Source: a virus. Taken from it: 64,000 bases of DNA. Position 1 is the stretch's first letter, and every line of letters begins with the position of its first letter. The position numbers and the translations under genes were made by a program. A model generated the notes under the pieces. That model was not told where the DNA came from. It did not search any database and worked only from the letters and a program-made list of their open reading frames with translations. Of the stretch, positions 11,714 through 62,962 are shown piece after piece. The stretch is taken from positions 124,001-188,000 of the IMG/VR virus record IMGVR_UViG_3300035665_000001; one strand, given 5' to 3'.

Positions 11714-12502
11714 TTAAAAAAATAAGTTTTGTAATTTATCTGGTAATAAATGGGTATTGTTAGTTTTTAATGCATATTTTAGCATATCAGGATAATCTTT
11801 CCAAAAATCACCATCATATCTGTCTACTAATTCATTATCTACAATTAATTTTGGTGATGTAACTTGACCAATTATCATAGAATCATGTATTTTTTCTAAT
11901 TCTGTTATTGCATTATGATTATCCGTGTTTAATGCTACGGTAAATGGACTTTCACCTTTTTTATTTAATGGATTAATAATTGTTTGTTTGGCTAAACTAA
12001 AAAATAAAGATAAATATGGAGTATATAAATTTATACCTGATAAAATATGCAATATATGAGTACCTGTTATACTTTGAGAATTTACATTGATATTTTTATG
12101 TGATATGACAATTTCAAACATTTTATTTGGGTTAAGTGAATTTAAAGCACTTTTCATAAGATTGAAATCGGCAGATCTTTTTTCTGTAGTTTTGTGGTGT
12201 TCTAGCATCGTTTCAATGGTCATTGAATAATCATGTGTCGCTGTTTTTGAAACCGATATTGCAACTTCGATAGGTGATAAAAAGTTACTACCACCAACAT
12301 CAACATTGCATCCTTGATCGATGAATTGAGTTACCTTTTGTAATAATTTTATTTTATCAAGATCCGAATATATTAATGCTTCTAAAAGTGTTATTTTATT
12401 GGCAACTCCTTCTATACTTGAAATATCGATAGTTATATCAGGTTTTATATTACCATTTTTTAATTGTTCTAACCATTGATCAATTTGTTCAATTGAAAAC
12501 AT
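11714..12502 (-). CDS. Ankyrin-like paralog 1 of the LPxK-tail family, 262 aa
   Basis: This is the last gene of a seven-gene tandem minus-strand array. The body has ankyrin-like helix pairs (TLLEALIYSDLDKIKLLQKV, GCNVDVG, SPIEVAI, SPFTVALNTDNHNAI). A conserved C-terminal block reads VDRYDGDFWKDYPDMLKYAL, and the protein ends LLPDKLQNLFF. The same block and tail end its neighbours, so these are paralogs. Ankyrin folds bind proteins, which suggests host-factor binding; no enzyme motif is visible. Confidence 0.85.
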   Translation of the reverse strand: MFSIEQIDQWLEQLKNGNIKPDITIDISSIEGVANKITLLEALIYSDLDKIKLLQKVTQFIDQGCNVDVGGSNFLSPIEVAISVSKTATHDYSMTIETMLEHHKTTEKRSADFNLMKSALNSLNPNKMFEIVISHKNINVNSQSITGTHILHILSGINLYTPYLSLFFSLAKQTIINPLNKKGESPFTVALNTDNHNAITELEKIHDSMIIGQVTSPKLIVDNELVDRYDGDFWKDYPDMLKYALKTNNTHLLPDKLQNLFF

Positions 12503-12540
12503 TATTTTTCTCCTTTATAATAAATTGTTAATGTTATTCC

Positions 12541-13305
12541 TCAGAATAAAAGGTTTTGTATTTTTTCTGGCAATAAAAATTTTTTTTCTGATTTAACTGC
12601 GTATGTTAACATTGCTGGGTAATCTTTCCAAAAGTTACCAATATATCTGTCCACAATTTCATATTTCACAATGTGTACTGGTGATTTACCATCATAACCT
12701 ATTAACATTGCGTGTTTGTTTTGTTTCCAGGCTAATATTGTAGCAGTGTTGGTGTTTAATAATGCAACAGTCATTGGACTATATCCATCCTTATTTATTG
12801 GATTAACATCAATATCAGGTCTAAGAGTTAGAATATCGTTAAGATGTTCAACATAATATGCCACTGCAGATAATATATGTAAAATATGAGTATTGTCATC
12901 TATAGAAATTGTGTTAACATTGATGTTTTCATTTGTTACTACTAAATTAAACATAATATTTGCATGTAATGCACCTAACGAACATTTCATAATATTTAAA
13001 TCGTTTTCGTGTTTTTTGTGGTGAGATAATAATAATCTGATTAGATCAACATAATCATTATCCTCAGACCAAAAAATTGCAGTTTCAATAGCAGAACAAC
13101 CGACTTGTACACCATCCACATCACAACCAAGTGATATAAGTTTTTCAATTAGTTTAATTTTTTCATTTGGTGATACATTTGTTACTCGTATAGCTGCATC
13201 AAGTAAGGTTGTTTGAAATTCCGTATCAACCATAAAATCGGGGGTAATCTTATGCTCTTCTAAATCTGAAATCCATCCATTAAGTTCTGTTAAGGTAATA
13301 ATCAT
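12541..13305 (-). CDS. Ankyrin-like paralog 2 of the LPxK-tail family, 254 aa
   Basis: It has the same architecture as its neighbours: an N-terminal helix (LNGWISDLEEHKITPDF), ankyrin-like units with a GCDVDG turn, a HILHILSA segment, and SPMTVALLNTNTATI. The C-terminal block VDRYIGNFWKDYPAMLTYAV comes last, with the tail LLPEKIQNLLF. Divergence from paralog 1 is high in the middle and low in the last ~45 residues, so the end of the protein appears to carry the shared function. Confidence 0.85.
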   Translation of the reverse strand: MIITLTELNGWISDLEEHKITPDFMVDTEFQTTLLDAAIRVTNVSPNEKIKLIEKLISLGCDVDGVQVGCSAIETAIFWSEDNDYVDLIRLLLSHHKKHENDLNIMKCSLGALHANIMFNLVVTNENINVNTISIDDNTHILHILSAVAYYVEHLNDILTLRPDIDVNPINKDGYSPMTVALLNTNTATILAWKQNKHAMLIGYDGKSPVHIVKYEIVDRYIGNFWKDYPAMLTYAVKSEKKFLLPEKIQNLLF

Positions 13306-13342
13306 TTTTTCACCAATGCTTTTAAATATTCAAATAGGGGTG

Positions 13343-14131
13343 TTAAAAAAACACATTTTTTAATTTTTCTGGTAGTTGATTAAATTTACCATTTTTATAG
13401 GCATAATTTAACATTTTTGGATATTTTTTCCAAAAATCTCCAAAATATCTATCAACTAAATTGTTGTCTATAATGTCAGTTTCAGCACCAGTAAAATTTC
13501 CAATAATCATGGTATATTTTCTTTTTTGTAGTTCCCTGACTGCAACATAATTTTTTATGTTTAATGCCACTGTGAATGGACTATTACCATTGTTATCTAG
13601 TGGGTTTAGATGTACATCTGGTGCATAAGAAAATAAATCGCCAATGAATGCTGCGTGATGTTCAGATTCAACTAAAATATGTAAAATATGTTGGTTGTTA
13701 CTATTTAATGCGTTTACATCCACTTGTTTATTTGATACCACAAGTTTAAATCTGGAATCTGGATCGTAAGAATTTATTGCCGTTATCATTAGACTAAAAT
13801 CTGATTCTTGTGTGGAATTATGTTTTCTTAACATCATATTTAATATAGATGTATTTATAACATCATCTTTTAACTGTAGTGCAATTTCTAATGGTGATCT
13901 ATAATTTTTATCATTTAAACTAGCATAATTAACACCATCAACATCACAACCAAAATCTAATAATTGTTTTATTACGTCAAATTTGACATTTACAGGCTCA
14001 TTACTCAAAATAATACTTTCAAGCATAGTAATGTCACCTTTACTACTACCTATAATTGCTTTATTTGGCTTTAATTCACCAGTTCGCAACATTTCAATCC
14101 ACGAATCAAAATACTTTTTGTTAAAACTCAT
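13343..14131 (-). CDS. Ankyrin-like paralog 3 of the LPxK-tail family, 262 aa
   Basis: The ATG at 14131 (MSFNKKYF) has GAAGG seven bases upstream and avoids overlapping the upstream paralog, so the longer frame to 14254 is rejected. Ankyrin-like units (GCDVDGVNY, SPLEIALQL, SPFTVALNIKNYVAV) are followed by VDRYFGDFWKKYPKMLNYAY and the tail QLPEKLKNVFF. Confidence 0.85.
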   Translation of the reverse strand: MSFNKKYFDSWIEMLRTGELKPNKAIIGSSKGDITMLESIILSNEPVNVKFDVIKQLLDFGCDVDGVNYASLNDKNYRSPLEIALQLKDDVINTSILNMMLRKHNSTQESDFSLMITAINSYDPDSRFKLVVSNKQVDVNALNSNNQHILHILVESEHHAAFIGDLFSYAPDVHLNPLDNNGNSPFTVALNIKNYVAVRELQKRKYTMIIGNFTGAETDIIDNNLVDRYFGDFWKKYPKMLNYAYKNGKFNQLPEKLKNVFF

Positions 14132-45357: not shown

Positions 45358-46074
45358 TTATTGGTATTCATCCCCATAGTACAAATCCTGAATATCGATT
45401 TCTCTGATTTCACCTGTTTTTTTGTTTCTAATAGTAATCTGTGTTTTACCATCCAGACAGTAAACAAATTTTAGCGATTTACCCCTAGCTGCGTTCGCAG
45501 TTGTAGCTTCCGCAATGATACGCATACCATTATCAAATTCTACCGAGGTTTCATTGTTCTTAATCATCCCAGGTTTTAACCAGTTTGGAGCAGAATAATA
45601 CATATCTTTTATTCGCTTCAATACTTCAACAGAATGTGCTTGTTTGTGAGCAACAATTAAAATATCCCCTTTTGCTACAGGAAAACATGCTTCATAAAGT
45701 AAATAAAAAGCACCAATGGTTGTATTATGACTGAGAATGCCATTCGTATAATATCGATGATCTTCACTTTCTACCGAAAGGTCATACATAGGTGTTGATT
45801 CGATTGTTTTCTTTACAGAAATTATTTTTTCTAATCCATCTTCTGTTACAATGAAATCATCAACGGTTAAATCTTTTACAAAAATTGAATTGTAATTACT
45901 ATCAAAAACAATATGATTATCTGCACATTCCAATATGTGATTTTCAGTAATCACTTCCCATACACAATAATCAACGGTCTTATTACTACCAATTATTTTT
46001 TGAAATCCCGTGTCTGTATTTACTGACCACCCATCAACTAAAAGTTGTTCAATAAATTTTTGTTTTTCATTCAT
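45358..46074 (-). CDS. terL: Terminase large subunit, middle piece between two split inteins
   Basis: From M1 (46074) the first ~117 residues are a C-intein (GFQKIIG; LECADNHIVF; MYDLSVESEDHRYYTNGILS then terminal His-Asn). An extein of 88 residues starts TTIGAFYLLYE, completing Walker A, and includes VAHKQAHSVEVLKRIKD and EATTANAARGKSLKFVY, which aligns with T4 gp17 just before Walker B. Then CLDGKTQITI begins a 33-residue N-intein that ends the protein. ATG 46110 would be almost leaderless from the -10 box at 46123, so 46074 with GGA upstream is preferred. The product is useless without trans-splicing at both ends. Confidence 0.9.
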   Translation of the reverse strand: MNEKQKFIEQLLVDGWSVNTDTGFQKIIGSNKTVDYCVWEVITENHILECADNHIVFDSNYNSIFVKDLTVDDFIVTEDGLEKIISVKKTIESTPMYDLSVESEDHRYYTNGILSHNTTIGAFYLLYEACFPVAKGDILIVAHKQAHSVEVLKRIKDMYYSAPNWLKPGMIKNNETSVEFDNGMRIIAEATTANAARGKSLKFVYCLDGKTQITIRNKKTGEIREIDIQDLYYGDEYQ

Positions 46075-46122
46075 ACTGTATCCATTAAGTTTTTCACAAT
46101 TCAAAATCATCGATTATTTCTA

Positions 46123-47448: not shown

Positions 47449-50082
47449 ATGATTAAGGATATTATATTAGGTTCATCAGAAACATTGACATCGACAGGCA
47501 GTGGTTCTGGTGATTCAAATTGGGATAAGGTAAGTTTATTATTAACCGGAAACAGTTTGTTAGATAGTAGTTTGTCAAACAATACTGTTTCTATTGTAGG
47601 CAACACGACTACATCATCTACACAGAAAAAATACAATAACACTAGTATTTATTTTGATGGTAGTGGTGATGAACTGTATGTTTCAAAAACAACTAGTCAG
47701 TTGATTGGACTATCAAATGATTTTACTGTTGAATTATGGTATTATGCTGATGGTAATCAATCTGCGTGGACGGGTATTATAAACAACTATCAAAGTGGTG
47801 GTTGGGGTTCAAATTCTAGTTGGTGGCTTGGATATGATGGTTCAGGTAGTAATGTACAAATTGGTGTAAAAACGGATTCTTCTCAAACATCAACTACACC
47901 AGTAAATGTTTCAGTTAATACATGGCATCATATTGCGTTTGTGCGTTATGGAAACAATTATACCATGTATCTTGATGGTGTTGGTGTAGGAACAGTTACT
48001 AATTCGGGTACGATAGTAGATACCAGCACAAAATTGGAAATTGGTGCCTGGGGTAATAATGTATATAATGTTAAAGCTTATATGAGTGACATTAGAATTA
48101 CAAAAGGTGTTGCTAGATATACTACAACATTTACACCACCTATTTCATCATTACCAACAGCAGCATTTGTTGCGACATTAGCAACACCAGCTTCCGATCC
48201 TAATACATCTAAATATGTTACTCTCCTATTAAATGGTGAGGGAACAAATGGATCTCAAAACAATACGTTTATTGATTCATCCTCTAATAACGCAACCGTC
48301 ACTAAATATGGTGATGTTACTCAAGGTTCATTTGGACCATTTGGTAATTCGTGGAGTGTTTATCTTGATGGTGCTGGGGATGATTTATATATACCTACTT
48401 CTTATGGTATTGGAGTTGGAGATTTTACTGTTGAAGCCTGGGGATATTTAAATGTACTATCTTCATGGAGTGATATTATCTGTTTTATTGGTAGTACATC
48501 ATGGGGATTAACCACGAATAACGGTGATATTGGTGCTTATAACATTGGTATAAACACATCGGGCACTATAATACCTACAAATTCATGGAACCATTTATCA
48601 ATTACGAGACAATCGGGTACAGTTAGATTATTTTTAAATGGTAGTCTTATAGGATCATCCACAAATAACACATCATTGGATAATACAAGTGTTAGAATTG
48701 GTGCCTGGGTATCATCTGGTACTGAAAACTGGAACGGTTATATTTCAAATCTTAGAGTAGTAAAAGGTACTGCACTTTATACCTCTAATTTTACTCCACC
48801 AACATCACCTTTAACAGCAGTTTTGGGAACAGTATTGTTGACTTGTCAATCAAATTGGATAAAAGATAATTCAGTCAATAATGTAACAATAACAGTAAAT
48901 GGTGATACTAAAGTAGTTAAAGATAGTCCTTTTCCTGAAGTTTATGATAAAACTGTTCATGGTGCAAGTGTTTATATACCATCAACGAGTTATTTGTCCA
49001 TACCTACCTTAGCAAATTATGGATTAGATGGGGATTTTACTGTTGAGGCATGGATTTATCCAAATAGTTATTCGACGTACGCCTATATTTTTTCAGTTAC
49101 TAACAATCCTAATGGGTTTGTATTTTATATTAATGGTGGTTATCTTAAAGTTCGAGCATATTATAACACTGATTTATTGTCCGTAACTGCACCACCATTA
49201 AATGTATGGTCTCACGTTGCCGCAACCAGAAGTGGTTCAACACTTAAAATTTTTATAAATGGTGTTCAAATGGGCAGTGTATCCAATTCAACCATTTTTC
49301 CTGCAAATGCTATTAGAGTTGGTGTGGATGGTACTGGTGGTGACTGGAATGGATATATATCAAATTTAAGAGTAGTGAAAGGAAGTGCACTCTATACTAA
49401 CAATTTCACTCCACCATCATCACCACTAAACATCGTTACAAATACATCAGTTTTATTGAAATTCGATAATGCTGGAATTATTGATTCTAGTGGGAAAACT
49501 GATTTAACAACTTATGGAAATGCTCAAATTAGTACAACATCAAAAAAATTTGGTACAGGTGCTATCTACTTTGATGGTAGTGGTGATTATCTAATAACAC
49601 CTCCAATATCAAGTAGTTATTTGATTGACACCACTGTTAACTACACTATAGAATGTTGGGTAAATATTACTGCAAATCCAAATACAGGTTATGGTCCTGT
49701 ATTTGTTTTAAATGGTGGTAGTTCAGGTACAAATGGCATTAGTGTTTGGATTTATAATAGTACCATCAATTTTTGGAATAATGGTTATTCTGCACCATTT
49801 GGTACATCAGGAAGTATTAGTTTTAATACCTGGTACCATATCGCTTATGTAAAAAATGGAACTACACTTACAGGTTATGTGAATGGTATATCTGTTGGAA
49901 CTGCAACTACGGTTACTGCAAACGGTGCTACTAATCAAATATATATTGGTGGAACATCCGCCGGTAAATCGTGGGATGGTAATTATTCATATTTGGGTTA
50001 TATTGATGATTTTAGAATTACTAAAGGAAAAGCTCTTTATACTAGTAATTTTACACCACCCACAACATCATTAACATTATAA
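47449..50082 (+). CDS. LamG-repeat adhesin 2, 877 aa
   Basis: The tag MIKDIILGSSETL is followed by four LamG/concanavalin-like domains of ~200 residues. Each has a YFDGSGD-type strand, an FTVE(L/A)W strand, a WHH(I/V)A strand and a closing SxxRxxKGxALYT-NFTPP. The third domain boundary carries PFPEVYDKTVHGASVY, nearly the same in all three LamG proteins. Likely a receptor-binding tail protein of the same set as 22452 and 50243. Confidence 0.85.
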   Translation: MIKDIILGSSETLTSTGSGSGDSNWDKVSLLLTGNSLLDSSLSNNTVSIVGNTTTSSTQKKYNNTSIYFDGSGDELYVSKTTSQLIGLSNDFTVELWYYADGNQSAWTGIINNYQSGGWGSNSSWWLGYDGSGSNVQIGVKTDSSQTSTTPVNVSVNTWHHIAFVRYGNNYTMYLDGVGVGTVTNSGTIVDTSTKLEIGAWGNNVYNVKAYMSDIRITKGVARYTTTFTPPISSLPTAAFVATLATPASDPNTSKYVTLLLNGEGTNGSQNNTFIDSSSNNATVTKYGDVTQGSFGPFGNSWSVYLDGAGDDLYIPTSYGIGVGDFTVEAWGYLNVLSSWSDIICFIGSTSWGLTTNNGDIGAYNIGINTSGTIIPTNSWNHLSITRQSGTVRLFLNGSLIGSSTNNTSLDNTSVRIGAWVSSGTENWNGYISNLRVVKGTALYTSNFTPPTSPLTAVLGTVLLTCQSNWIKDNSVNNVTITVNGDTKVVKDSPFPEVYDKTVHGASVYIPSTSYLSIPTLANYGLDGDFTVEAWIYPNSYSTYAYIFSVTNNPNGFVFYINGGYLKVRAYYNTDLLSVTAPPLNVWSHVAATRSGSTLKIFINGVQMGSVSNSTIFPANAIRVGVDGTGGDWNGYISNLRVVKGSALYTNNFTPPSSPLNIVTNTSVLLKFDNAGIIDSSGKTDLTTYGNAQISTTSKKFGTGAIYFDGSGDYLITPPISSSYLIDTTVNYTIECWVNITANPNTGYGPVFVLNGGSSGTNGISVWIYNSTINFWNNGYSAPFGTSGSISFNTWYHIAYVKNGTTLTGYVNGISVGTATTVTANGATNQIYIGGTSAGKSWDGNYSYLGYIDDFRITKGKALYTSNFTPPTTSLTL

Positions 50083-50242: not shown

Positions 50243-52855
50243 ATGATTAAAGATATTATATTAGGTTCATCCGAAATAGTAACAGTAAGTGGTACAGGTG
50301 ATCCAAATTGGAGTAACGTTGCGTTGTTATTAAATGGTGATGATTTATTGGATCATTCGAGTAATTCTAAAACCATAACTGTTAATGGTACTATATCAAT
50401 TAATACAACTACAAAGAAATACGGAACAGGTTCATATTATAGTTCATCTGCTGGAAATTATTTAACAGTTACAAATATGGGTTTATTTGGATCTTCTAAT
50501 TTTACAATGGAAGGATGGTTTTATAAGATAGCTAGCACTGGAAATGGGTTGACAAGTTATTTTTCATATAACCAATATACGGATGGTATTTTATTCCGCG
50601 ACGATTGTTTATATATTAATGGTTTGAATTTAGGTTCATTTTCATCAGGTTTATCAACAAACACTTGGCACCATATAGCATTAGTCCGTGATGGAAACAC
50701 TTTTACAATTTATTTAGATGGTGTGTCGACTAAACAATATAGTAGTAATGCTGTTATTTCACCATCATCCACAACAACATTATGGGTGGGTGCGGCATCA
50801 CATAATGCAGGTAGTGAAGGGTTTTATGGGTATATTGATGATGTAAGAGTAACTAAAGGGGTTGCGGTTTATACTGCAAATTTTACACCAACACAATTAC
50901 AGATTGGAGCTTTCACAACTTCACCTGTTTCTGCTTCCGATCCAAATACATCGAGATATGTTTCTTTATTATTAAATGGTGATGGTACAAACGGTGCACA
51001 AAATAATACTTTTGTTGATAGTAGTTCAAGTAATTTGACTGTTACTAGGTATGGTGATTCAACACAGGGCTCATTTGGACCTTTTGGTAATAGTTGGGGT
51101 GTTTCTTTTAATGGTGCATCCGATTATTTAGAGGTACCAACAGCTTTTGCAGGTTTAACAAATACAACATCACCATTTACAGTCGAAGGTTGGTTTAATA
51201 GTAATATATCTATTTCTGGTATTTGTCCAATCGGTATGAATAGTAAGAGTTCAGGGACAAATGTTTTATTATGGGGTGGTGATTTATGGGTAAATAATAC
51301 GAATGTATTTTCATTTAGTACAAACCATACCGATGTAGTAAAATATAATTGGTATCATGTTGCTATTTGTTACAATGGATCAACAGTAAAATGGTATGAA
51401 AATGGTAATTTAATTTATACTTATAATGGGGCATTAACAGTTGCACCTAATGATTGTACATTAGGAATTGGTGCTGAATTTGACGCTGCAAATGGTGGCA
51501 GTCCAGGCAATTATCATAATGGTTACATAAGTAATTTTAGAGTTAGTAATATCGTTCGTTATACATCGAACTTTACACCACCAACATCTAATTTTGTTTC
51601 AGATACAAATACTTTACTATTAACCTGTAGTGGTAATATGTTTAAAGATTATTCATCACTTAATAAAACAATATCAATTTTTAATACACCAAAAATTGTA
51701 AAGGAATGTCCATTTCCAGAAGTGTATGATAAAACTGTTCAAGGTGGAAGTGCTTATTTTGATGGTACAGGTGATTATTTGACTACTAATGGAGTATCTA
51801 TTTCATCAGCAACAAATTATACCTTAGAATTCTGGTTTTATACCACCGATGTAACTGCAAGTTATCACAGAATTATTCATAATAACTCCAATGGTAATAT
51901 TTATTATTGGTACACCAATGGGACAACATTATATGGTTATAATGCTGACATTGGTACCCTTATTTCTGCAGGGACATTTGTTCCAGGTCAATGGACTCAT
52001 GTTGCGATTAGTAGAGTGAGTACAACGACCACGGTGTATTTAAATGGGGTTTCTACAAAAACGTATTCTGGTTCAAGTGCATTCACTACGATTGGTAATA
52101 CAATTGGTGGCGGTCCAGCTTCAGAATATTTTACTGGATACTTATCTAATATTCACATTGTAAATGGTACAGCATTATATACCTCCAATTTTACACCATC
52201 AACATCTCCATTAACAGCAATTGCAAACACCTCATTACTATTGAAGTGTGATAATGCTGGTATTATCGATGCAATAGGTAAAAATGATTTGGTTACTTAT
52301 GGTAATGCTCAAATTAGTACAGCTAAGAAAAAATATGGTACAGGCAGTATGTATTTCGATGGTTCAAATGGTTATTTGGTAATACCCCACAATACCAATT
52401 TAAATATGGTAGGAGGTAATTTTACTATTGAGTTTTGGGCTAATTTTGCGGCAAATCAAAACGGTCCTGTTATTTCGAAATGGATAAATGGTAAAGGTGA
52501 ATTTTATTTTGGTATTCATAATTCAGCAGTACAATGTGCAATTTTAAATAGTTCCAGTGCTGGGAATACCTCTGGTGGTACATTTTGTTCAGCAGGTGCA
52601 TTTACAACGAATGTTTGGAATCATTGGGCTGCGGTTAGAAATGGTGATAATATTTTAATGTTTAAAGATGGTGTTTTACAATCAACTACATCATTTACTG
52701 GTAATATTTTTACATCTGATTCAAAATTAACATGTGGGTATAATTTAGACAATGGTTGGACAATAAACGGTTACATAGATGATTTAAGAATCACAAAAGG
52801 GAAAGCGTTGTACACATCAAACTTTACACCTCCATCTACACCACTAACACCATAA
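50243..52855 (+). CDS. LamG-repeat adhesin 3, 870 aa
   Basis: It has the tag MIKDIILGSSEIV and four LamG-like domains in the same order as adhesins 1 and 2. Conserved closures are DDVRVTKG, SNFRVSN, SNIHIVNG and DDLRITKG, each followed by an (A/R)YT-NFTP segment. Domain sequences differ strongly in the loops that would contact glycans while the framework strands are kept, as expected for diversified receptor binding. Its own terminator and late promoter make it a separate unit. Confidence 0.85.
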   Translation: MIKDIILGSSEIVTVSGTGDPNWSNVALLLNGDDLLDHSSNSKTITVNGTISINTTTKKYGTGSYYSSSAGNYLTVTNMGLFGSSNFTMEGWFYKIASTGNGLTSYFSYNQYTDGILFRDDCLYINGLNLGSFSSGLSTNTWHHIALVRDGNTFTIYLDGVSTKQYSSNAVISPSSTTTLWVGAASHNAGSEGFYGYIDDVRVTKGVAVYTANFTPTQLQIGAFTTSPVSASDPNTSRYVSLLLNGDGTNGAQNNTFVDSSSSNLTVTRYGDSTQGSFGPFGNSWGVSFNGASDYLEVPTAFAGLTNTTSPFTVEGWFNSNISISGICPIGMNSKSSGTNVLLWGGDLWVNNTNVFSFSTNHTDVVKYNWYHVAICYNGSTVKWYENGNLIYTYNGALTVAPNDCTLGIGAEFDAANGGSPGNYHNGYISNFRVSNIVRYTSNFTPPTSNFVSDTNTLLLTCSGNMFKDYSSLNKTISIFNTPKIVKECPFPEVYDKTVQGGSAYFDGTGDYLTTNGVSISSATNYTLEFWFYTTDVTASYHRIIHNNSNGNIYYWYTNGTTLYGYNADIGTLISAGTFVPGQWTHVAISRVSTTTTVYLNGVSTKTYSGSSAFTTIGNTIGGGPASEYFTGYLSNIHIVNGTALYTSNFTPSTSPLTAIANTSLLLKCDNAGIIDAIGKNDLVTYGNAQISTAKKKYGTGSMYFDGSNGYLVIPHNTNLNMVGGNFTIEFWANFAANQNGPVISKWINGKGEFYFGIHNSAVQCAILNSSSAGNTSGGTFCSAGAFTTNVWNHWAAVRNGDNILMFKDGVLQSTTSFTGNIFTSDSKLTCGYNLDNGWTINGYIDDLRITKGKALYTSNFTPPSTPLTP

Positions 52856-52914: not shown

Positions 52915-53790
52915 TCATTGTATAGTTAATACTGTATAGTAATTTTTTGGTTCATGAAAAAATGTAGTGTAATCAGAAACAACATTTACCAAAGAAAGTG
53001 TATTGTTTGTGGATTCAATTTTCTCAATTTTTTCTAAATCAAACATAATGTATGGAATAAAATATCCACCCCCATCTGCCATAATTTTAATAGTATTACC
53101 TACGTTATTATAGGCTAACAAAATTTTATCACCAATTGCCTCATGTATTCGGATTTTAATATTCTGATTGATGTAAAAAGAACCATCATCTTTACAATTT
53201 AAAAATTTTTTCTCTACATCCAAGATTTTAAAGTTACTAAATGTTTTTGATGATATTACTATCACATTTGCAGTACCTCTTCGATTTTTTCTACCAATGT
53301 TATTTGCTTCATTTTGAATGATACCAAAAATTTTAATATCAACATCATCCACAAAAGTAAATTTTTCTGCACGATCAACAATTTCACATAACATCTTATT
53401 TTCGATTGATTCATATAAAACTGAAAAGGTGTCATGTAAATTATGTTGTGGTGTTTTATCTTGTTGCAATGTATCTAAAAAGTCTAAAGTAATTTGACAT
53501 ACAGATTCATTATCTGTTTCTACCACAATATCATCGGTTTGTAATGAAAAAGAAGTGTTGGAATCATTAGAAACATACATAAATTTTATGGTATCCTGTT
53601 TTTTTGATACAGGTTGTATCTGCATAATATCATTAATGATTGATTTTTTTAAAAAATTAACTACAGCATTCAAAAATATATTCTTAGTATCTTCAGTCTG
53701 AGATATTAACAGTTGGTTTGATAGTAGTTGTATTGCAACATTATGTTTACCGCAACCTGGTGTAAAATCAATTTTTTCTACAATTTGCAT
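52915..53790 (-). CDS. Capsid-like protein related to the C-terminal part of gp23, 291 aa
   Basis: The C-terminal half parallels T4 gp23: a (Q/H)NEANNIGRKNRRGTANVIVI segment (gp23 has HNAANEIGRQTGRGAGNFII), then NIKIRIHEAIGDKILLAYNN (the chain corresponding to KYRVYIDQ), and ADGGGYFIPYIMF (gp23 has DAGIYYAPYVAL). The N-terminal half lacks gp23's long leader and insertion domain; with 291 residues it is far shorter than gp23 (521). It could be a minor vertex-type capsid paralog, or a derived protein with a new role. The similarity is by eye only. Confidence 0.55.
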   Translation of the reverse strand: MQIVEKIDFTPGCGKHNVAIQLLSNQLLISQTEDTKNIFLNAVVNFLKKSIINDIMQIQPVSKKQDTIKFMYVSNDSNTSFSLQTDDIVVETDNESVCQITLDFLDTLQQDKTPQHNLHDTFSVLYESIENKMLCEIVDRAEKFTFVDDVDIKIFGIIQNEANNIGRKNRRGTANVIVISSKTFSNFKILDVEKKFLNCKDDGSFYINQNIKIRIHEAIGDKILLAYNNVGNTIKIMADGGGYFIPYIMFDLEKIEKIESTNNTLSLVNVVSDYTTFFHEPKNYYTVLTIQ

Positions 53791-56847: not shown

Positions 56848-57210
56848 TTATTTACTTGGTTCTACAGGCCATGCAATTTGCTCAGGTGTTGTAACATAGG
56901 GTTGAACACTTGGAAAATTACGTAATGCATTACGATAAGCTGCCCATTCTGCTTTTTTTGCATCTGATAATGCCGCGTCTGGAAGTTGTGTCCAATCAGA
57001 CATTTTCAATAAATCTGTACGAACAGTTCTAATATAATTAAAGAACTGTTCGTTGGTTGGAGGAACGATTGTTTCCGCCTCAAAATATTCAACATACCCT
57101 AATTCAGCTAAACCGACTTGGTCTTTTAAACCTGTTCTAGCTAATACATCCAAATATGGTATTTTACTTTCTGTAACAATACCACCAACTTCTAAATTAT
57201 AATAAACCAT
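56848..57210 (-). CDS. Phage tail assembly chaperone (Phage_tail_APC-like), 120 aa
   Basis: The ATG at 57210 overlaps the fibre stop (TAATG), giving coupled translation. The segment VRTDLLKMSDWTQLPDAALS followed by KAEWAAYRNALRNFP is the classic tail-assembly chaperone signature. It probably folds or attaches the upstream fibre. Confidence 0.85.
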   Translation of the reverse strand: MVYYNLEVGGIVTESKIPYLDVLARTGLKDQVGLAELGYVEYFEAETIVPPTNEQFFNYIRTVRTDLLKMSDWTQLPDAALSDAKKAEWAAYRNALRNFPSVQPYVTTPEQIAWPVEPSK

Positions 57211-59381
57211 TACATATCTCCTGTACCTGTTGATGGGAATGAACGACCAGATCCCCAAATTATACGAACGCAACCACGACCACCTTTATTTAATCCGTAA
57301 CCCATTGGACTACTACTACCAGTTCCGCCACCGCCACCGCCATATAAACCACCTACTTTTGTACCAAAAACACCTATACTCCACCATGGGTTTTCACCAA
57401 TGTCACCATCTGTACCACCGGAACCACACATACCACCCGAATGTGCCCGTGAACTTCCTGATGTACCTTGACCAAATGGACCAACACCACCACCTGCACC
57501 TGTACCATAAGTAGAAGAGTACATATAACCACCTGCTGCACCGCCACCAGATCCATTGTGATTGGCACCATTTTCTCCAGATCCACCGTTTCCTGTATAA
57601 CCGCCGGCACCACCACCAGAACAAGCCCATTGTCCTGAACCATAACCACCATTACCACCACCACCTCTATATGCTCCACCACCACCAGCATTACTACCAT
57701 TGGAACCGCCATTAGCATAGAGTGTAGATGTATTTATGAAGTATGATTGACCACCGGATAAATCACCACCATTCCCATCACCACCTTTACCAACTTGAAC
57801 CGTATAATCTGTACCTGGTGTTACTGGAATGTTATTACCCCACGATAAAGCTCCACCAGCTCCACCACCATAAGACCATTGTGAACCACCACCAGCTCCA
57901 CCACCGATACAAACTACAGAAACAGATGTTACCCCAGGAGGACATCTCCATGTATAAGTACCATGTCCAGAACCATAGAAAGCTTGTCCAACTAATGAAC
58001 CACTACCACCAACAACAGTTCCAGAAACAGTAGTAGAAATAGATGCATTTCCTGTTCCATCGAATGAAACCGAACCAGTGACGTCACCAGTTAAAGAGAT
58101 AGTTCTTGCAGTTGCTAATTTAGTTGCTGCTGCTGCAGTTGCAGTTAGACCTAATTTACCATCAATGTTTGTTTGTAATGTTGTAACTGCTGAAGCTCTT
58201 GTAGATACTTCACTTGCCAAATTGTTGGTTAAAGTGGTAATTGCTGCTTGTCTTGCAGATGTTTCAACAGCTATAGCAGCTGCTTGTGCAGTTGAAACAG
58301 GTTTTGATAAGTCGGCTGTATTATCAACGTTAGTTAAACCAATTGCTGATTTATCTAATACACCATTTACAAAATTAGTACCATTCCATTTAATAATGTC
58401 GTTCACTTGTTTATTTGAAATTAATACATCATTTAATGAACCTAAAGCATGGTTATGATTGGTTTTACTATAGGTAAGATTTGTAAACTCTCTAGTTGCG
58501 ATAGTTTCAAATGTTCCACCAATTTGACCAACTTTGAAGAAATCATCTAATTCATCAAATAATAGAGCAAAATCAGACATATCACCACGATCAACTTGGA
58601 TACCAGCTTTACCTAAAGTAACACCTGAACCAATTTCTCCGGAATTAACTACAATAATGTTATCTTTAACATTTACAATTGTTGAGTTTACAGATGTTTG
58701 TGTACCGTTAACTGTTAAGTTACCACCAATAGTTAAATTACCACTCAATTGTTGACTAGTTCCAGAAATAGTGCTACTAAACACAGTTGGTGCAGATACT
58801 TGTACCTCATTAGTTGCACCAATACGAACATTAGAACCGGTACCAACTGCATTTAAAAATACGTCAGCGTTAATTCCTGATGTAGATATATTTACTGATT
58901 TTTCAGATTCAACTGTAGTTGTGCCAGTCCCAGAAGTTTTCATATCAATTGACTGATTACTATCTGAATGAATGTTAATTGTAGTTGCAGTTGTACCCAA
59001 AATAGCTGTATCACCAATATACAATGTATTTGTCGATAATTTGGCTTCATCAACGAAGATTGTTTTAAATCTTTGTGTTACTGAACCAATATCAATGTTA
59101 GCACCGCTTGGTAAAATTGTACTTGCTACAGTAAGTGATTTTGCATTGAAATCTTGTAACACGCTACCTGCTAAATTGGCTTTTAATGCATCTGCAGCTT
59201 TATAGGCTGTATCCAGTGCATTAACTGTATTCGATAATGTAGTAATAGCAGTTGTTCTAGATGTATTTGCAGAGGCAATATCAGCAGATAAACTATTATC
59301 AGCTGCCTGTCTTGCAGATGCTTCATTTGCAACAGCGGTTGCAACTACACTACCAATTTTTTTAAAAATTGAATCAACCAT
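57210..59381 (-). CDS. Large tail fibre with glycine-rich tip, 723 aa
   Basis: The leader MVDSIFKKIGSVVATAVANE is followed by beta-helix-like repeats with a NLTIGGNLTVNGTQTSVNS segment (about 220-240) typical of T4-type fibre proteins. A coiled-coil/shaft segment (about 395-430) follows, then a Gly-rich tip from about 485, ending RGCVRIIWGSGRSFPSTG. It combines in one chain the shaft and tip that are separate genes at 17740 and 18566. Late promoter upstream. Confidence 0.9.
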   Translation of the reverse strand: MVDSIFKKIGSVVATAVANEASARQAADNSLSADIASANTSRTTAITTLSNTVNALDTAYKAADALKANLAGSVLQDFNAKSLTVASTILPSGANIDIGSVTQRFKTIFVDEAKLSTNTLYIGDTAILGTTATTINIHSDSNQSIDMKTSGTGTTTVESEKSVNISTSGINADVFLNAVGTGSNVRIGATNEVQVSAPTVFSSTISGTSQQLSGNLTIGGNLTVNGTQTSVNSTIVNVKDNIIVVNSGEIGSGVTLGKAGIQVDRGDMSDFALLFDELDDFFKVGQIGGTFETIATREFTNLTYSKTNHNHALGSLNDVLISNKQVNDIIKWNGTNFVNGVLDKSAIGLTNVDNTADLSKPVSTAQAAAIAVETSARQAAITTLTNNLASEVSTRASAVTTLQTNIDGKLGLTATAAAATKLATARTISLTGDVTGSVSFDGTGNASISTTVSGTVVGGSGSLVGQAFYGSGHGTYTWRCPPGVTSVSVVCIGGGAGGGSQWSYGGGAGGALSWGNNIPVTPGTDYTVQVGKGGDGNGGDLSGGQSYFINTSTLYANGGSNGSNAGGGGAYRGGGGNGGYGSGQWACSGGGAGGYTGNGGSGENGANHNGSGGGAAGGYMYSSTYGTGAGGGVGPFGQGTSGSSRAHSGGMCGSGGTDGDIGENPWWSIGVFGTKVGGLYGGGGGGTGSSSPMGYGLNKGGRGCVRIIWGSGRSFPSTGTGDM
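58135..58246 (-). repeat. 112-bp identical block shared between two fibre genes, copy 2
   Basis: Identical to 55959-56070. Confidence 0.9.
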
Positions 59382-59461: not shown

Positions 59462-59570
59462 AAATTTCAAAATATACATGATATTTATTTTTTAAAAAAA
59501 TATCACAAAATTCATATTTTAATATGATTTACTTTTATTATTTTACATTCACAGCGATAAAAATAACAAA

Positions 59571-60890
59571 TTATTTTTTTAAAATTAATGGGTTTTGACT
59601 ACCATATATTAATGCCGAATCAATATCCTCAATATCAAATGTTCTTTCACATTCATGACACTGATAACATTGTGATTTACATACAGATAATATTTTTTCT
59701 AATCTTATTCCTTTTTCAGTCATCCAAATATTATTATATAGATATTTTTCTTTAATTTCGGTGTAAATGTCGGGTGTTAAGTATCTATATTCATGATCAT
59801 CTGTTACTCGATTTAGTTTCCAGGTACTCATTGGAGCTGCTTCTAAATTATAAATATTTTCAAAGGTTTTGTCGATGATGATATAATCTTTTTCACCAGT
59901 CAAACCAAATTTTTTTGTTGCACTAACTGCTGCCGCACCAAATGTCCAGGCTAAATGAATGTTTTTATCTATTATATCCTGTTCACTGAAAGTTGAAAAA
60001 CTATCTAATCTACCCGAATATTTTAAAATATCTACATTTTCAAAATATTGGTCTTGTGTTTCTCTATGATTTGCTTCAATATTAACACCATTTCTAGGTA
60101 GTTGACCAAATATTGGATTTCTCCAATTGTTACATGTAAAATTGGCTAATGTTCTAAAATAATTAACACTGATCGATGAACCAATATCATCATGTTCCTT
60201 TTTAAAGGGGCATCTATACAAACATCCTTCAGTAACTAACAGTGATGTTTTTAATTGTTTTGCATTAGGATCTAATTCTTTTTTTATGGTATTATATTTA
60301 TCAATGATTTTCTTTGTTTTTTTAAGTTCTGGTATATTTCTATTATAGGATCTGTCTAATAATATGGTATCATATCCCAAACTGATAAATTCGACCACCT
60401 GTTGTGTATCTGAAACAATATGATTGACCGTGTTTTTCCAACGCATTTCTGGACATCTATGTTGTAATGCACCACTTCTTAATAAATGTGTCCAAGCAAT
60501 TGTACAACTTCTTAACCCTCTGTCATAAAAAGCACCAATCCAATCGAGAAATTGGTTTCCAATTTCAGGATTAGTTTGTAGTTCTTCAGGCACTTCTAAA
60601 GTGTTTAATGTCAAAGAAATTTGTACACCTGTTTCTTCTTGAATTTTAAATAAATTGTCTACCTGTGCATCTGTTGCTTCAACACCCATACAATTACCAT
60701 ATTTCTTTTTTGTACCATTACTTTCAAAATAGAAATATTTACCGAAATAAATGTCTTCAATTTCAGCCAATGTTTCTTTTGGTGTTTGTTTTATAAGAAG
60801 ATAAAAATGGTTGGGTGCATTTTCCATATGTAGTTCTGGATGTGCTATCGAAAATCTTTTTTTAAAATTTTGTGTCTGGGTATGTTCCAT
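59571..60890 (-). CDS. U32 peptidase-like (possible Fe-S) protein, 439 aa
   Basis: The N-terminal ~200 residues look like a TIM-barrel: ISLTLNTLEVPEEL, RSCTIAWTHLLRSG, HIVSDTQQVVEFISLGYDTI, LDRSYNRNIPELKK. A LLVTEGCLYRCPFKKEHDD segment (near 220-235) resembles the conserved Cys region of U32 proteins. A C-terminal CKSQCYQCHEC cluster follows. U32 proteins such as UbiU/UbiV, TrhP and RlhA hold a [4Fe-4S] cluster through four Cys and act in hydroxylation of RNA or quinones rather than proteolysis. A phage copy may modify RNA; this is inference. Confidence 0.65.
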   Translation of the reverse strand: MEHTQTQNFKKRFSIAHPELHMENAPNHFYLLIKQTPKETLAEIEDIYFGKYFYFESNGTKKKYGNCMGVEATDAQVDNLFKIQEETGVQISLTLNTLEVPEELQTNPEIGNQFLDWIGAFYDRGLRSCTIAWTHLLRSGALQHRCPEMRWKNTVNHIVSDTQQVVEFISLGYDTILLDRSYNRNIPELKKTKKIIDKYNTIKKELDPNAKQLKTSLLVTEGCLYRCPFKKEHDDIGSSISVNYFRTLANFTCNNWRNPIFGQLPRNGVNIEANHRETQDQYFENVDILKYSGRLDSFSTFSEQDIIDKNIHLAWTFGAAAVSATKKFGLTGEKDYIIIDKTFENIYNLEAAPMSTWKLNRVTDDHEYRYLTPDIYTEIKEKYLYNNIWMTEKGIRLEKILSVCKSQCYQCHECERTFDIEDIDSALIYGSQNPLILKK

Positions 60891-60956
60891 AATTTTCGTT
60901 CCAATTTTAATTTGATATTATTATATTATTTTACATTAAAAATCATTTTCATGTGA

Positions 60957-61298
60957 TTAATGTTTGGTCATATCATGAAATTCTTTAATAGTAAACTCCA
61001 TTATTTCACCAGTTAAATCATTCCTTACAGTGATGATTGAATTTCCTTTTACACATTTACTCATTTGACGACTAGCTAAAAGAATAGATCTTTCAGAATT
61101 TTGAAAAAGATCTAACATTTCAAATTGATATGGTTTGATAACCTTTGCAAAATTAACAGGTCCATCGGATGTATTAATATCACAATAATAAGTAAACCGT
61201 TTTAATCCTGTTGGTCTTCTCATTAATCTAGCCATTTCCATAGTTTGTTCTAATGAAAGTGATATTTCCTGATTTGCTCTCCTAATATAATCTGCCAT
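60957..61298 (-). CDS. terL: Terminase large subunit, N-terminal piece with split N-intein
   Basis: Residues 1-81 are an extein like the gp17 N-terminus, ending KPYQFEMLDLFQ...ILLASRQMSK, which stops inside Walker A (T4 has SRQLGKTT). Cys82 starts a 32-residue N-intein (CVKGNSIITVRNDLTGEIME...). Fragments this short recall the atypical AceL-TerL split intein. The matching C-intein and the next extein residues (TTIG) are encoded 15 kb away at 45358-46074. The start has AAGGAT upstream. Confidence 0.9.
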   Translation of the reverse strand: MADYIRRANQEISLSLEQTMEMARLMRRPTGLKRFTYYCDINTSDGPVNFAKVIKPYQFEMLDLFQNSERSILLASRQMSKCVKGNSIITVRNDLTGEIMEFTIKEFHDMTKH

Positions 61299-61368
61299 AA
61301 TATGGTATCCTTTTGTTGTATGATTTATGCTATTTATTTTACATTTGATTTGGTGGTGTAATAATCTA

Positions 61369-61494: not shown

Positions 61495-61590
61495 TCTTTA
61501 AGATTCTTTAATATCTATTCTTTAGGAAAATATTTTTCGTTTTTATACTATATTAATAAGGGGTTTTTTCGAGGGTGTTCAAAAAAATTC

Positions 61591-61694
61591 ATTTTCTATT
61601 GGGAGAAATCAATTTTTTTTCATTTTCTATTGGGAGGAAATAACGAAAATTCATTTTCTATTGGGAAAGATTCAAATATCATTTTCTATTGGGA
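61591..61694 (+). repeat. Four iterons upstream of rep
   Basis: CATTTTCTATTGGGA occurs at 61591, 61621, 61652 and 61680 (15 bases each, starts 30, 31 and 28 apart), with a partial copy (CATTTTCTAAGG) at 61705. Spacing near three helical turns puts them on about the same DNA face, as in plasmid Rep-binding iterons. Confidence 0.9.
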
Positions 61695-61716
61695 AGTTAT
61701 TTTTCATTTTCTAAGG

Positions 61717-61753: not shown

Positions 61754-62962
61754 ATGAAAATGAAAAATAACTTCCCAATAGAAAATGAAAAAATGAAAAT
61801 AAATAAGCACAATTTTGAAATCAATAAACCCTCCGAACTATGTCAAGTAGTTTTTTTTGAAAATTATAAAAAAGGTATTTTTGCATACTTAACACCAACA
61901 CAAATTGACCTGATTAATATTTTATTTTATCAGGTTAAAAAAGAGATATTAACTGATAAAACATCAACCGATGATTTAGATAGTATAATTATGGTAGATA
62001 TTGAATTGACTGAAATTCACAGAATGTTAAATTATAAGTATAATAAGGATAGTGAAGCCTTACTAAATTACCTCTATGAGTTAAAGAAAGTTGATGTTAT
62101 GGTTAATACTTTAGGTAAAGTAAAAGACAGAATTGATTATAAACTAACATCAATAATCCATACACTAGAATGGTCAAAACATAAGAATATTTTAGATAAG
62201 AAAATAAAAATTGGTATAGACCGAGATATTATTCTATCTTTCATTGATAGAAAGGATTATTTTGCAAAGATGCATCTTTCATTACAATTATCAATGGTTT
62301 CAAAATATTCTAAGTTGTTATATGAGATATTGAAAGATTACGCTGGACTAAAAACGATTACTGTTGATTTTGGAATATTATTACCATTACTAAATGTTAA
62401 TTTTGAAAATACTAGGAATGGTGAATGGTCTATGTTTAATCAAAACATTTTAATGAAATCGGTTAATGAAATCAATGAAAAATCTGATATTGTAGTTTCT
62501 TATGAAGCGATTAAAGAAAAACCAGAAGGTGGTAGATTGCAAGTAACTAAAATAAAATTTACTATTGAAAAACAACCAGAAATAAGATTGTGTGAATTGG
62601 GTTTAATTCCACCAAGAATTGATAATAATAAATTTTATAATAAATCAAAAACTAAACTAGATAAATTGATTAGTAGTGGTTATAAAGTTATTGATGAGGA
62701 AAAATGGATTGAAACAGATATTACCAATAATGAAGAAAGATATGATGCAGAAATGCGTGTAGATATGTGGTTGAAAAGCACACCACGAGAAGATAGAAAT
62801 AAGATTTATGAATTACTTGCAACAAATTTAGATGAATGTCATGAGCAATTTATCACCATTGAAGGCTATTTAATTAAAGGTATTTTTTCAAATGAAGCCT
62901 ATACTAAGAATCCAATGGAAACTATTGCTGTTATGAATGATTTTTTGAGCAAAATAACATAA
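61754..62962 (+). CDS. rep: Plasmid-type replication initiator, Rep_3 family, 402 aa
   Basis: The N-terminal domain (about 25-150) is a winged helix (LCQVVFFENYKKGIFAYLTP, MVDIELTEIHRMLNYKYN). The stretch SKYSKLLYEILKDYAG followed by ITVDFGILLPLLNV, WSMFNQNILMKSVNEINEKS and DIVVSYEAIKEKPEGGRL is the Rep_3/RepB core in which the second winged helix binds iterons. A C-terminal ~100 residues are extra. Exact iterons lie just upstream and one inverted copy overlaps the gene's start. Start could be 61754 or, without an iteron in the coding part, 61793; neither has a strong ribosome site. Confidence 0.85.
   Translation: MKMKNNFPIENEKMKINKHNFEINKPSELCQVVFFENYKKGIFAYLTPTQIDLINILFYQVKKEILTDKTSTDDLDSIIMVDIELTEIHRMLNYKYNKDSEALLNYLYELKKVDVMVNTLGKVKDRIDYKLTSIIHTLEWSKHKNILDKKIKIGIDRDIILSFIDRKDYFAKMHLSLQLSMVSKYSKLLYEILKDYAGLKTITVDFGILLPLLNVNFENTRNGEWSMFNQNILMKSVNEINEKSDIVVSYEAIKEKPEGGRLQVTKIKFTIEKQPEIRLCELGLIPPRIDNNKFYNKSKTKLDKLISSGYKVIDEEKWIETDITNNEERYDAEMRVDMWLKSTPREDRNKIYELLATNLDECHEQFITIEGYLIKGIFSNEAYTKNPMETIAVMNDFLSKIT
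61773..61787 (-). promoter_or_regulatory. Inverted iteron, candidate rep operator
   Basis: TCCCAATAGAAAATG is an exact inverse copy of the iteron, lying just before ATG 61793 or inside the first codons if ATG 61754 is used. Inverted operator copies near the initiator gene are typical of autoregulated Rep_3 systems. Confidence 0.7.

Follow-up and report, generated by a model that had tools for sequence, protein, structure and literature searches.

Proteins of the U32 family form a class of oxygen-independent hydroxylation enzymes that is still being worked out. UbiU, TrhP and RlhA have a bound [4Fe-4S] cluster, and hydroxylation by TrhP and RlhA requires prephenate. The two U32 proteins UbiU and UbiV act in the hydroxylation of quinones, and CX6CX15CX3/4C has been described as a recurrent cysteine motif of U32 families, with UbiU having CX6CX16CX38C (PMC6747719). 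Hydroxylation by TrhP depends on E162, C170 and C177, and that by RlhA on the counterparts of these residues (PMC6599085). In Bacillus subtilis the U32 proteins TrhP1 and TrhP2 first make ho5U34 in tRNA, which is then converted to mo5U34 by TrmR (YrrM), encoded in the same operon (PMC6599085).

The window analysed here is a stretch of 64,000 nucleotides, corresponding to positions 124001-188000 of a virus contig of 306,333 bases (IMG/VR record IMGVR_UViG_3300035665_000001). The record carries a single U32-like gene. The first-pass annotation of this gene had proposed a U32-like TIM barrel with candidate Fe-S cysteines and, as a consequence, a modification of RNA during infection. The features of the gene and of its two neighbours are collected in Table 1.

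Table 1. Positions, within the window, of the U32-like gene, its candidate functional residues and the genes on both sides.
Feature	Position	Strand	Basis
U32-like protein, CDS, 439 aa	59571..60890	-	ATG start, no internal stop; PHROG 1458 E 7.5e-19
C223-LYR-C227 codons, candidate Fe-S ligands where the fifth barrel strand ends	60210..60224	-	Cys in 112/112 rows; aligns with the first U32 Cys pair
C253 codon, candidate third ligand	60132..60134	-	Cys in 112/112 rows
K290-YSG-R294 codons, counterpart of U32 K-x-x-G-R	60009..60023	-	K, G, R in 52/52 rows of alignment A5; aligned with KIEGR
C404-x3-C408-x2-C411-x2-C414 codons, C-terminal, candidate second metal or Fe-S site	59649..59681	-	conserved in alignments
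Insertion of ~40 residues preceding the C-terminal Cys motif	59697..59816	-	missing in the compared relatives (alignment A3); low-confidence model region
GGAA, possible ribosome-binding site, 8 bases 5' of the ATG	60899..60902	-	inferred by reading the sequence
Downstream neighbour, 723 aa, glycine-rich fibre-like protein	57210..59381	-	Gly_rich_2 PF21722 E 1.4e-9; composition
Upstream neighbour, terminase large subunit, N-terminal piece	60957..61298	-	PHROG 5989 E 0.0029; sequence

A promoter scan of the locus yielded 20 promoter-like sites where 18.2 were expected, and a terminator scan yielded none. The motif TGTAAAATAA was found three times on the minus strand (59538-59547, 60926-60935 and 61334-61343), and these were its sole copies in the window against 1.63 expected. 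In that order they lie ahead of the genes for the fibre-like protein, the U32-like protein and the terminase piece, a pattern that was first spotted by eye and is thus post hoc; TGTAAAATAA may be a phage promoter element.

Several further features of this phage were observed around the locus. The large terminase subunit is present in three distant, out-of-order pieces on the same strand (window 60957-61298 and 45358-46110, both minus, and 12201-13511, minus, in stretch L207), with apparent split intein halves at the breaks; the third piece was assigned by eye. The large subunit of ribonucleotide reductase extends over three consecutive ORFs with intein-half-like ends (L206 2996-6468, plus strand), the first of which matches phage NrdA, and another ORF of L206 (13465-14697) starts like an intein C-half. 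Fractured genes seem to be frequent in this phage, and a 291-residue ORF with a partial match to the T4 major capsid protein Gp23 (window 52915-53790, minus strand; PF07068 5e-8) may be another split gene. Just before an ORF with Rep3 initiator domains (61754-62962, plus strand; PF01051 7.2e-8, PF21205 6e-9) there are four direct repeats around TTCATTTTCTATTGGGA, spaced 28-31 bases apart (window 61584-61713); repeats and ORF together would make a putative plasmid-like origin, iterons included, in this giant phage. Two large proteins encoded at 47449-50082 and 50243-52855 (plus strand) have four matches each to Laminin-G-like (concanavalin A-like) domains, and both resemble phage virion and baseplate proteins.

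The structural model of the window protein was weak (pLDDT 59.7, pTM 0.57), and a family model, made for residues 1-344 of the relative L086 with 52 aligned sequences, was good (pLDDT 87.2, pTM 0.87). VIA-align placed the U32 protein Mk0906 (5d88) first for both models, so that the U32-like barrel of the first-pass annotation was recovered. For the window protein the match reached a Z of 15.0 and an rmsd of 4.9 over 212 residues, followed by an unrelated TIM barrel at Z 12.9; for the family model it reached Z 16.2 and an rmsd of 3.3 over 224 residues, the next match being at 12.8. The sequence identity between the family model and 5d88 was 11%. Ranked by Foldseek E-value, 5d88 came seventh, behind six other TIM-barrel chains, and its TM-scores (0.52 and 0.70) were the highest among the 50 matches listed. 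The closest viral model outside the family was the 'Peptidase' A0A3G3MCS7 of Escherichia phage OLB35 (Foldseek E 3.8e-11).

The resemblance to U32 proteins was seen by structure comparison and by profile-profile comparison, but not by HMMER against Pfam or PDB sequences. The window protein had no Pfam match at E<=10, PF01136 (U32) was absent among the Pfam matches of 16 family members, and the search of PDB sequences with a family profile did not recover U32 chains. A match of the window protein to RecU (NCBIfam, E 0.025) was regarded as a chance match. When the 52-row family alignment was compared by hhalign with 33 U32 proteins (four from E. coli and 29 from other genomes), an E-value of 1.3e-4 and a score of 41.4 were obtained, although the probability was only 54%. 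The controls stayed lower, the best of 40 column shuffles reaching 21.5, the best of eight neighbour families 24.7 and the reversed alignment 10.5; the window sequence alone gave no significant match to the U32 profile (E 0.028). The fuller profile alignment spanned the whole barrel, with the strand preceding the cysteines, the Cys pair and K-x-x-G-R in register. Among the single E. coli sequences TrhP gave the best E-value (8.6e-5), followed by RlhA (0.003), UbiU (0.027) and UbiV (0.2), yet as sets the RlhA-like proteins (1.4e-4) matched better than the TrhP-like ones (0.0032). A specifically TrhP-like family was therefore rejected and, because the two rankings disagree, the U32 subfamily cannot be named. 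We concluded that the phage family is very probably related to the U32 superfamily.

The two cysteine clusters pointed out earlier, CLYRC and CKSQCYQCHEC, were found at residues 223-227 and 404-414, and C253 was identified as an additional conserved cysteine. Conservation among homologues, on which the first-pass annotation had staked its reading, was observed for all seven cysteines across 112 distinct sequences. In the alignment of 112 rows (111 distinct IMG/VR sequences and the window protein) C223, C227, C253 and C404 were Cys in every row, and C408, C411 and C414 were Cys in 110 rows; in L150 and L151, which deviate, C-x3-C-x2-C-x2-C lies at residue 362, where it was clipped by the 365-residue limit. 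L044, with an open start, was left out of one of the cysteine tallies and of the ORF-length tally, and L148, whose match was longer than the cut, was left out of alignment A5 and has the Cys motif at its residue 341. All seven cysteines were also invariant between the window protein and seven cyanophage records. E221, E232 and H233 (window numbering) were kept in all 52 rows of A5, as were K290, G293 and R294. The window protein is only ~26-32% identical to other family members, and stretches elsewhere that are conserved in the family are changed in it. The retention of seven cysteines at this low identity, while other stretches changed, speaks for a functional metal site, of which the cysteines would be the putative ligands.

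The family departs from the described U32 proteins in several ways. The spacing in the window protein, C223-x3-C227-x25-C253 with four further cysteines ~150 residues later, does not correspond to CX6CX15CX3/4C. The two essential cysteines of TrhP and RlhA have aligned counterparts in the family, and the column of the essential Glu holds D in 36, I in 9, V in 4, A in 2 and S in 1 of 52 rows. Because the family lacks a match to the Pfam model, the CX6CX15CX3/4C spacing and the TrhP/RlhA Glu, we regard it as a divergent U32-related branch and not as a canonical member.

In PHROGs the window protein matched, besides phrog_1458 (function not assigned), also phrog_36869 (E 1.4e-10). At E<=1e-3, tblastn matched 123 phage records, whose names refer to Synechococcus phage, cyanophage or Prochlorococcus phage, and the identity was ~24-29% among the matches listed. 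GenBank notes for Syn19, P-SSM4 and metaG-MbCM1 give the gene as T4-GC 354, a hypothetical protein. In a literature search that covered few subscription journals we found no account of the family as U32-like, of its cysteines or of a link to a TrmR-type methyltransferase, and the number 354 does not occur in the available portion of PMC3037559. U32-type proteins in phages are not new per se, since 44 phage records matched TrhP (E<=0.01), some of them labelled 'putative protease' or YegQ. In Prochlorococcus phage P-SSM3 (L002 5812-7496) a fused form of the gene is unannotated and its frame is broken within the methyltransferase part; this protein was read up to the frame break only.

As a single query against IMG/VR the window protein gave 12 pattern matches and no relatives, so that an alignment was required for the search. 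Two alignment-led scans, of up to 600 stretches each, then found relatives in at least 503 and at least 558 stretches, respectively, and the two sets may overlap. The best 80 from each scan were taken as a set of 160 loci, in which duplicates are included and which is biased to similarity with the query; judged by their first 330 residues, they hold 112 distinct sequences. One scan of cellular genome contigs with the phage-family patterns gave three short contigs, all from metagenome-assembled genomes; patterns of this origin may miss distant relatives in cells. In the family tree the window protein sits on a very long branch, and for this reason its exact position is unsure and its function may have changed.

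The relatives differ in the length of the ORF, which was at least 460 residues in 82 of the 160 loci and shorter in 78. The extra C-terminal part corresponds to a methyltransferase: two members matched Methyltransf_24 above the cut-off (2e-8 and 2.1e-6), and one cyanophage member gave Methyltransf_23 at 0.092, below the cut-off. Where the short form is present, a separate gene for the same methyltransferase comes next (phrog_1458 positions 296-518; Methyltransf_24 8.4e-7). Seven of the 112 distinct sequences had too little downstream sequence to be judged; among the remaining 105 the O-methyltransferase was fused in 63, adjacent downstream in 42 and missing in none. In each of the 123 phage records the match covers 80% or more of a fused protein from a cyanophage.

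A profile of this methyltransferase searched against all PDB sequences gave a sole significant match, B. subtilis YrrM (TrmR), at E 1.4e-5, with the next at 0.092. YrrM/TrmR also came first when the separate genes (7e-5, next 0.061) or the fused domains (7.6e-5, next 0.22) were used alone, two sets that have no sequences in common. COMT coordinates its metal by Asp, Asp and Asn (PMC6543040). In the phage methyltransferase D131 and D159 were invariant (37/37), the site of the third ligand is an invariant Asp (D160), and an invariant Asn follows two residues further.

In the window record, which may be a fragment, searches at E<=10 with PF13578 and with profile A6 found no matching methyltransferase. 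A hidden methyltransferase was also sought with PF01596 and rejected, as this model gave only sub-cut-off traces in ORFs not resembling methyltransferases. The record, possibly incomplete, likewise yielded no radical SAM protein. ARAGORN detected no tRNA genes in the window, and in the whole record Rfam gave one tRNA match, below the cut-off, and none above. Since tRNA genes were present in 7 of 12 chosen relative records, tRNA carriage does not decide about the substrate. The window phage may have kept the first step alone, may borrow a methyltransferase of the host, or may have altered the chemistry.

On these observations we propose the following mechanism. The TIM barrel would most likely bind a [4Fe-4S] cluster at its mouth via C223, C227, C253 and one more ligand, and the C-terminal C-x3-C-x2-C-x2-C would provide a second Fe-S or metal site. 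By analogy with the studied U32 proteins the enzyme would hydroxylate a ring without oxygen, and in the relatives the fused or neighbouring COMT/TrmR-type methyltransferase would then O-methylate the hydroxylated product. Binding of an Fe-S cluster is likely, and we hold it with good confidence; a hydroxylase-type chemistry is slightly favoured. The hydroxylate-then-methylate logic of TrhP1/TrhP2 and TrmR at the tRNA wobble uridine makes an RNA pyrimidine the preferred substrate, and it is the match of the methyltransferase to TrmR, a tRNA ho5U methyltransferase, that leads us to RNA. Against RNA stand the window record, in which neither a methyltransferase nor an above-cut-off tRNA was found, the lack of conservation of the Glu on which TrhP and RlhA depend, and the fibre-like virion surroundings. 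From the first-pass annotation the U32-type barrel and the conserved candidate Fe-S cysteines were thus retained, and RNA as the target became a tentative assignment, to which we give somewhat less than an even chance. The best overall explanation, a diverged U32 branch that performs Fe-S hydroxylation on an RNA pyrimidine, is a tentative one as well. Hydroxylation of RNA is plausible, with the modification of a virion fibre protein only slightly less likely.

The gene order speaks for such a protein substrate, for which the enzyme and the methyltransferase, and next to the unfused form a radical SAM protein too, would hydroxylate and methylate the adjoining fibre-like proteins. Every one of the 93 relatives whose upstream sequence was long enough has fibre-like genes (c1) within 6.5 kb upstream, an arrangement that suggests a virion target, and in 74 of these 93 a second gene (c2) lies within 4 kb. 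The c1 proteins are rich in G, S, T and N, and the label 'fibre-like' rests on this composition and on the GenBank name 'sericin 1 precursor-like', which weakens the argument. A radical SAM gene adjoins the unfused form in 43 of 48 cases and the fused form in 1 of 59. The radical SAM family (45 sequences) has CX3CX2C and nine more invariant cysteines, and by this richness in cysteine its members look like auxiliary-cluster peptide maturases, although the Pfam SPASM model gave no match in the phage protein. At one locus (L089) the U32-like gene has DUF6445 and a SPASM-domain radical SAM protein as neighbours, and in three others (L058, L070 and L086) a 2OG-Fe(II) oxygenase gene comes after the domain. 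The downstream neighbour in the window phage is glycine-rich and fibre-like too, though by profile it is unrelated to c1. On the other side, the methyltransferase is nearest to a tRNA enzyme, the gene order may reflect merely a conserved late gene block, and we know of no U32 protein that acts on a protein substrate. Taken by itself, a virion target is rather unlikely.

If the target were a small molecule, such as a quinone, cofactor, sugar or nucleotide, the gene would be an auxiliary metabolic one, and the COMT-type methyltransferase would complete the product as in ubiquinone synthesis. This is in line with the role of UbiU-UbiV in quinone hydroxylation (PMC6747719) and with small catechols as the usual substrates of COMT (PMC6543040), and c6, a gene cluster found close to the domain at 59 of 80 loci, is weakly similar to membrane transporter families (DUF401 1.2e-9; CitMHS below the cut-off). 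UbiU and UbiV were, however, the weakest of the U32 matches, behind RlhA and TrhP, and other genes of a pathway were not recognised, so that we consider a small-molecule target improbable. That the likeness to U32 goes no further than a shared TIM-barrel fold, with a different enzyme whose cysteines bind structural zinc, would agree with the low identity to 5d88, the missing Pfam match, the Foldseek E-values in favour of other TIM barrels and weak matches to PF01261 (xylose-isomerase-like barrel; 4 of 16 members, best E 0.0035), but it is very improbable, as in both VIA-align lists the margin of 5d88 over the next entry exceeds 2 Z units and the profile match spans the whole barrel including KxxGR, far above the shuffles.

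Returning to the U32-type hydroxylase as the preferred reading, we tentatively suggest that a widespread branch of aquatic T4-like phages possesses a two-step enzyme in which such a hydroxylase is joined to a TrmR-type O-methyltransferase, making either wobble mo5U in the infected cell or hydroxylated and methoxylated residues on the fibres of the phage itself, and that the version in the giant phage is far-diverged, free of the methyltransferase and of its own specificity; as a whole this scenario is possible rather than probable. If true, the wobble base of tRNA would be altered by aquatic phages, or phages would chemically modify their adhesion fibres. If the family works alike, it would offer a phage U32 version joined with an O-methyltransferase in one polypeptide, of a size suited to expression and assays, and it would give a function to a gene that is annotated as hypothetical in the well-studied cyanophages P-SSM4 and Syn19.

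In comparison with known proteins, the window protein belongs to the same sequence family as PHROG 1458 / T4-GC 354 of P-SSM4 and Syn19, with which it has the seven cysteines in common. The PHROG 1458 proteins of cyanophages have a C-terminal methyltransferase, whereas the window protein stops shortly past the Cys motif and has insertions. The OLB35 protein A0A3G3MCS7 has a similar predicted fold at 16% identity to the family model. With the U32 superfamily (UbiU, UbiV, TrhP, RlhA, Mk0906) the family shares the TIM barrel, the strand order, the Cys pair after the fifth strand, KxxGR and invariant cysteines; it is unlike this superfamily in having no PF01136 match, a different cysteine spacing with the additional C-terminal C-x3-C-x2-C-x2-C, and no counterpart of the TrhP/RlhA Glu. 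The TrhP1/TrhP2-TrmR route of B. subtilis is resembled in that a U32-type protein and a TrmR-type O-methyltransferase occur together in all 105 judged relatives. It differs from the phage systems in that such a methyltransferase was not found in the window record, and in that the relatives carry the two activities as one polypeptide or as a gene pair within a virion block.
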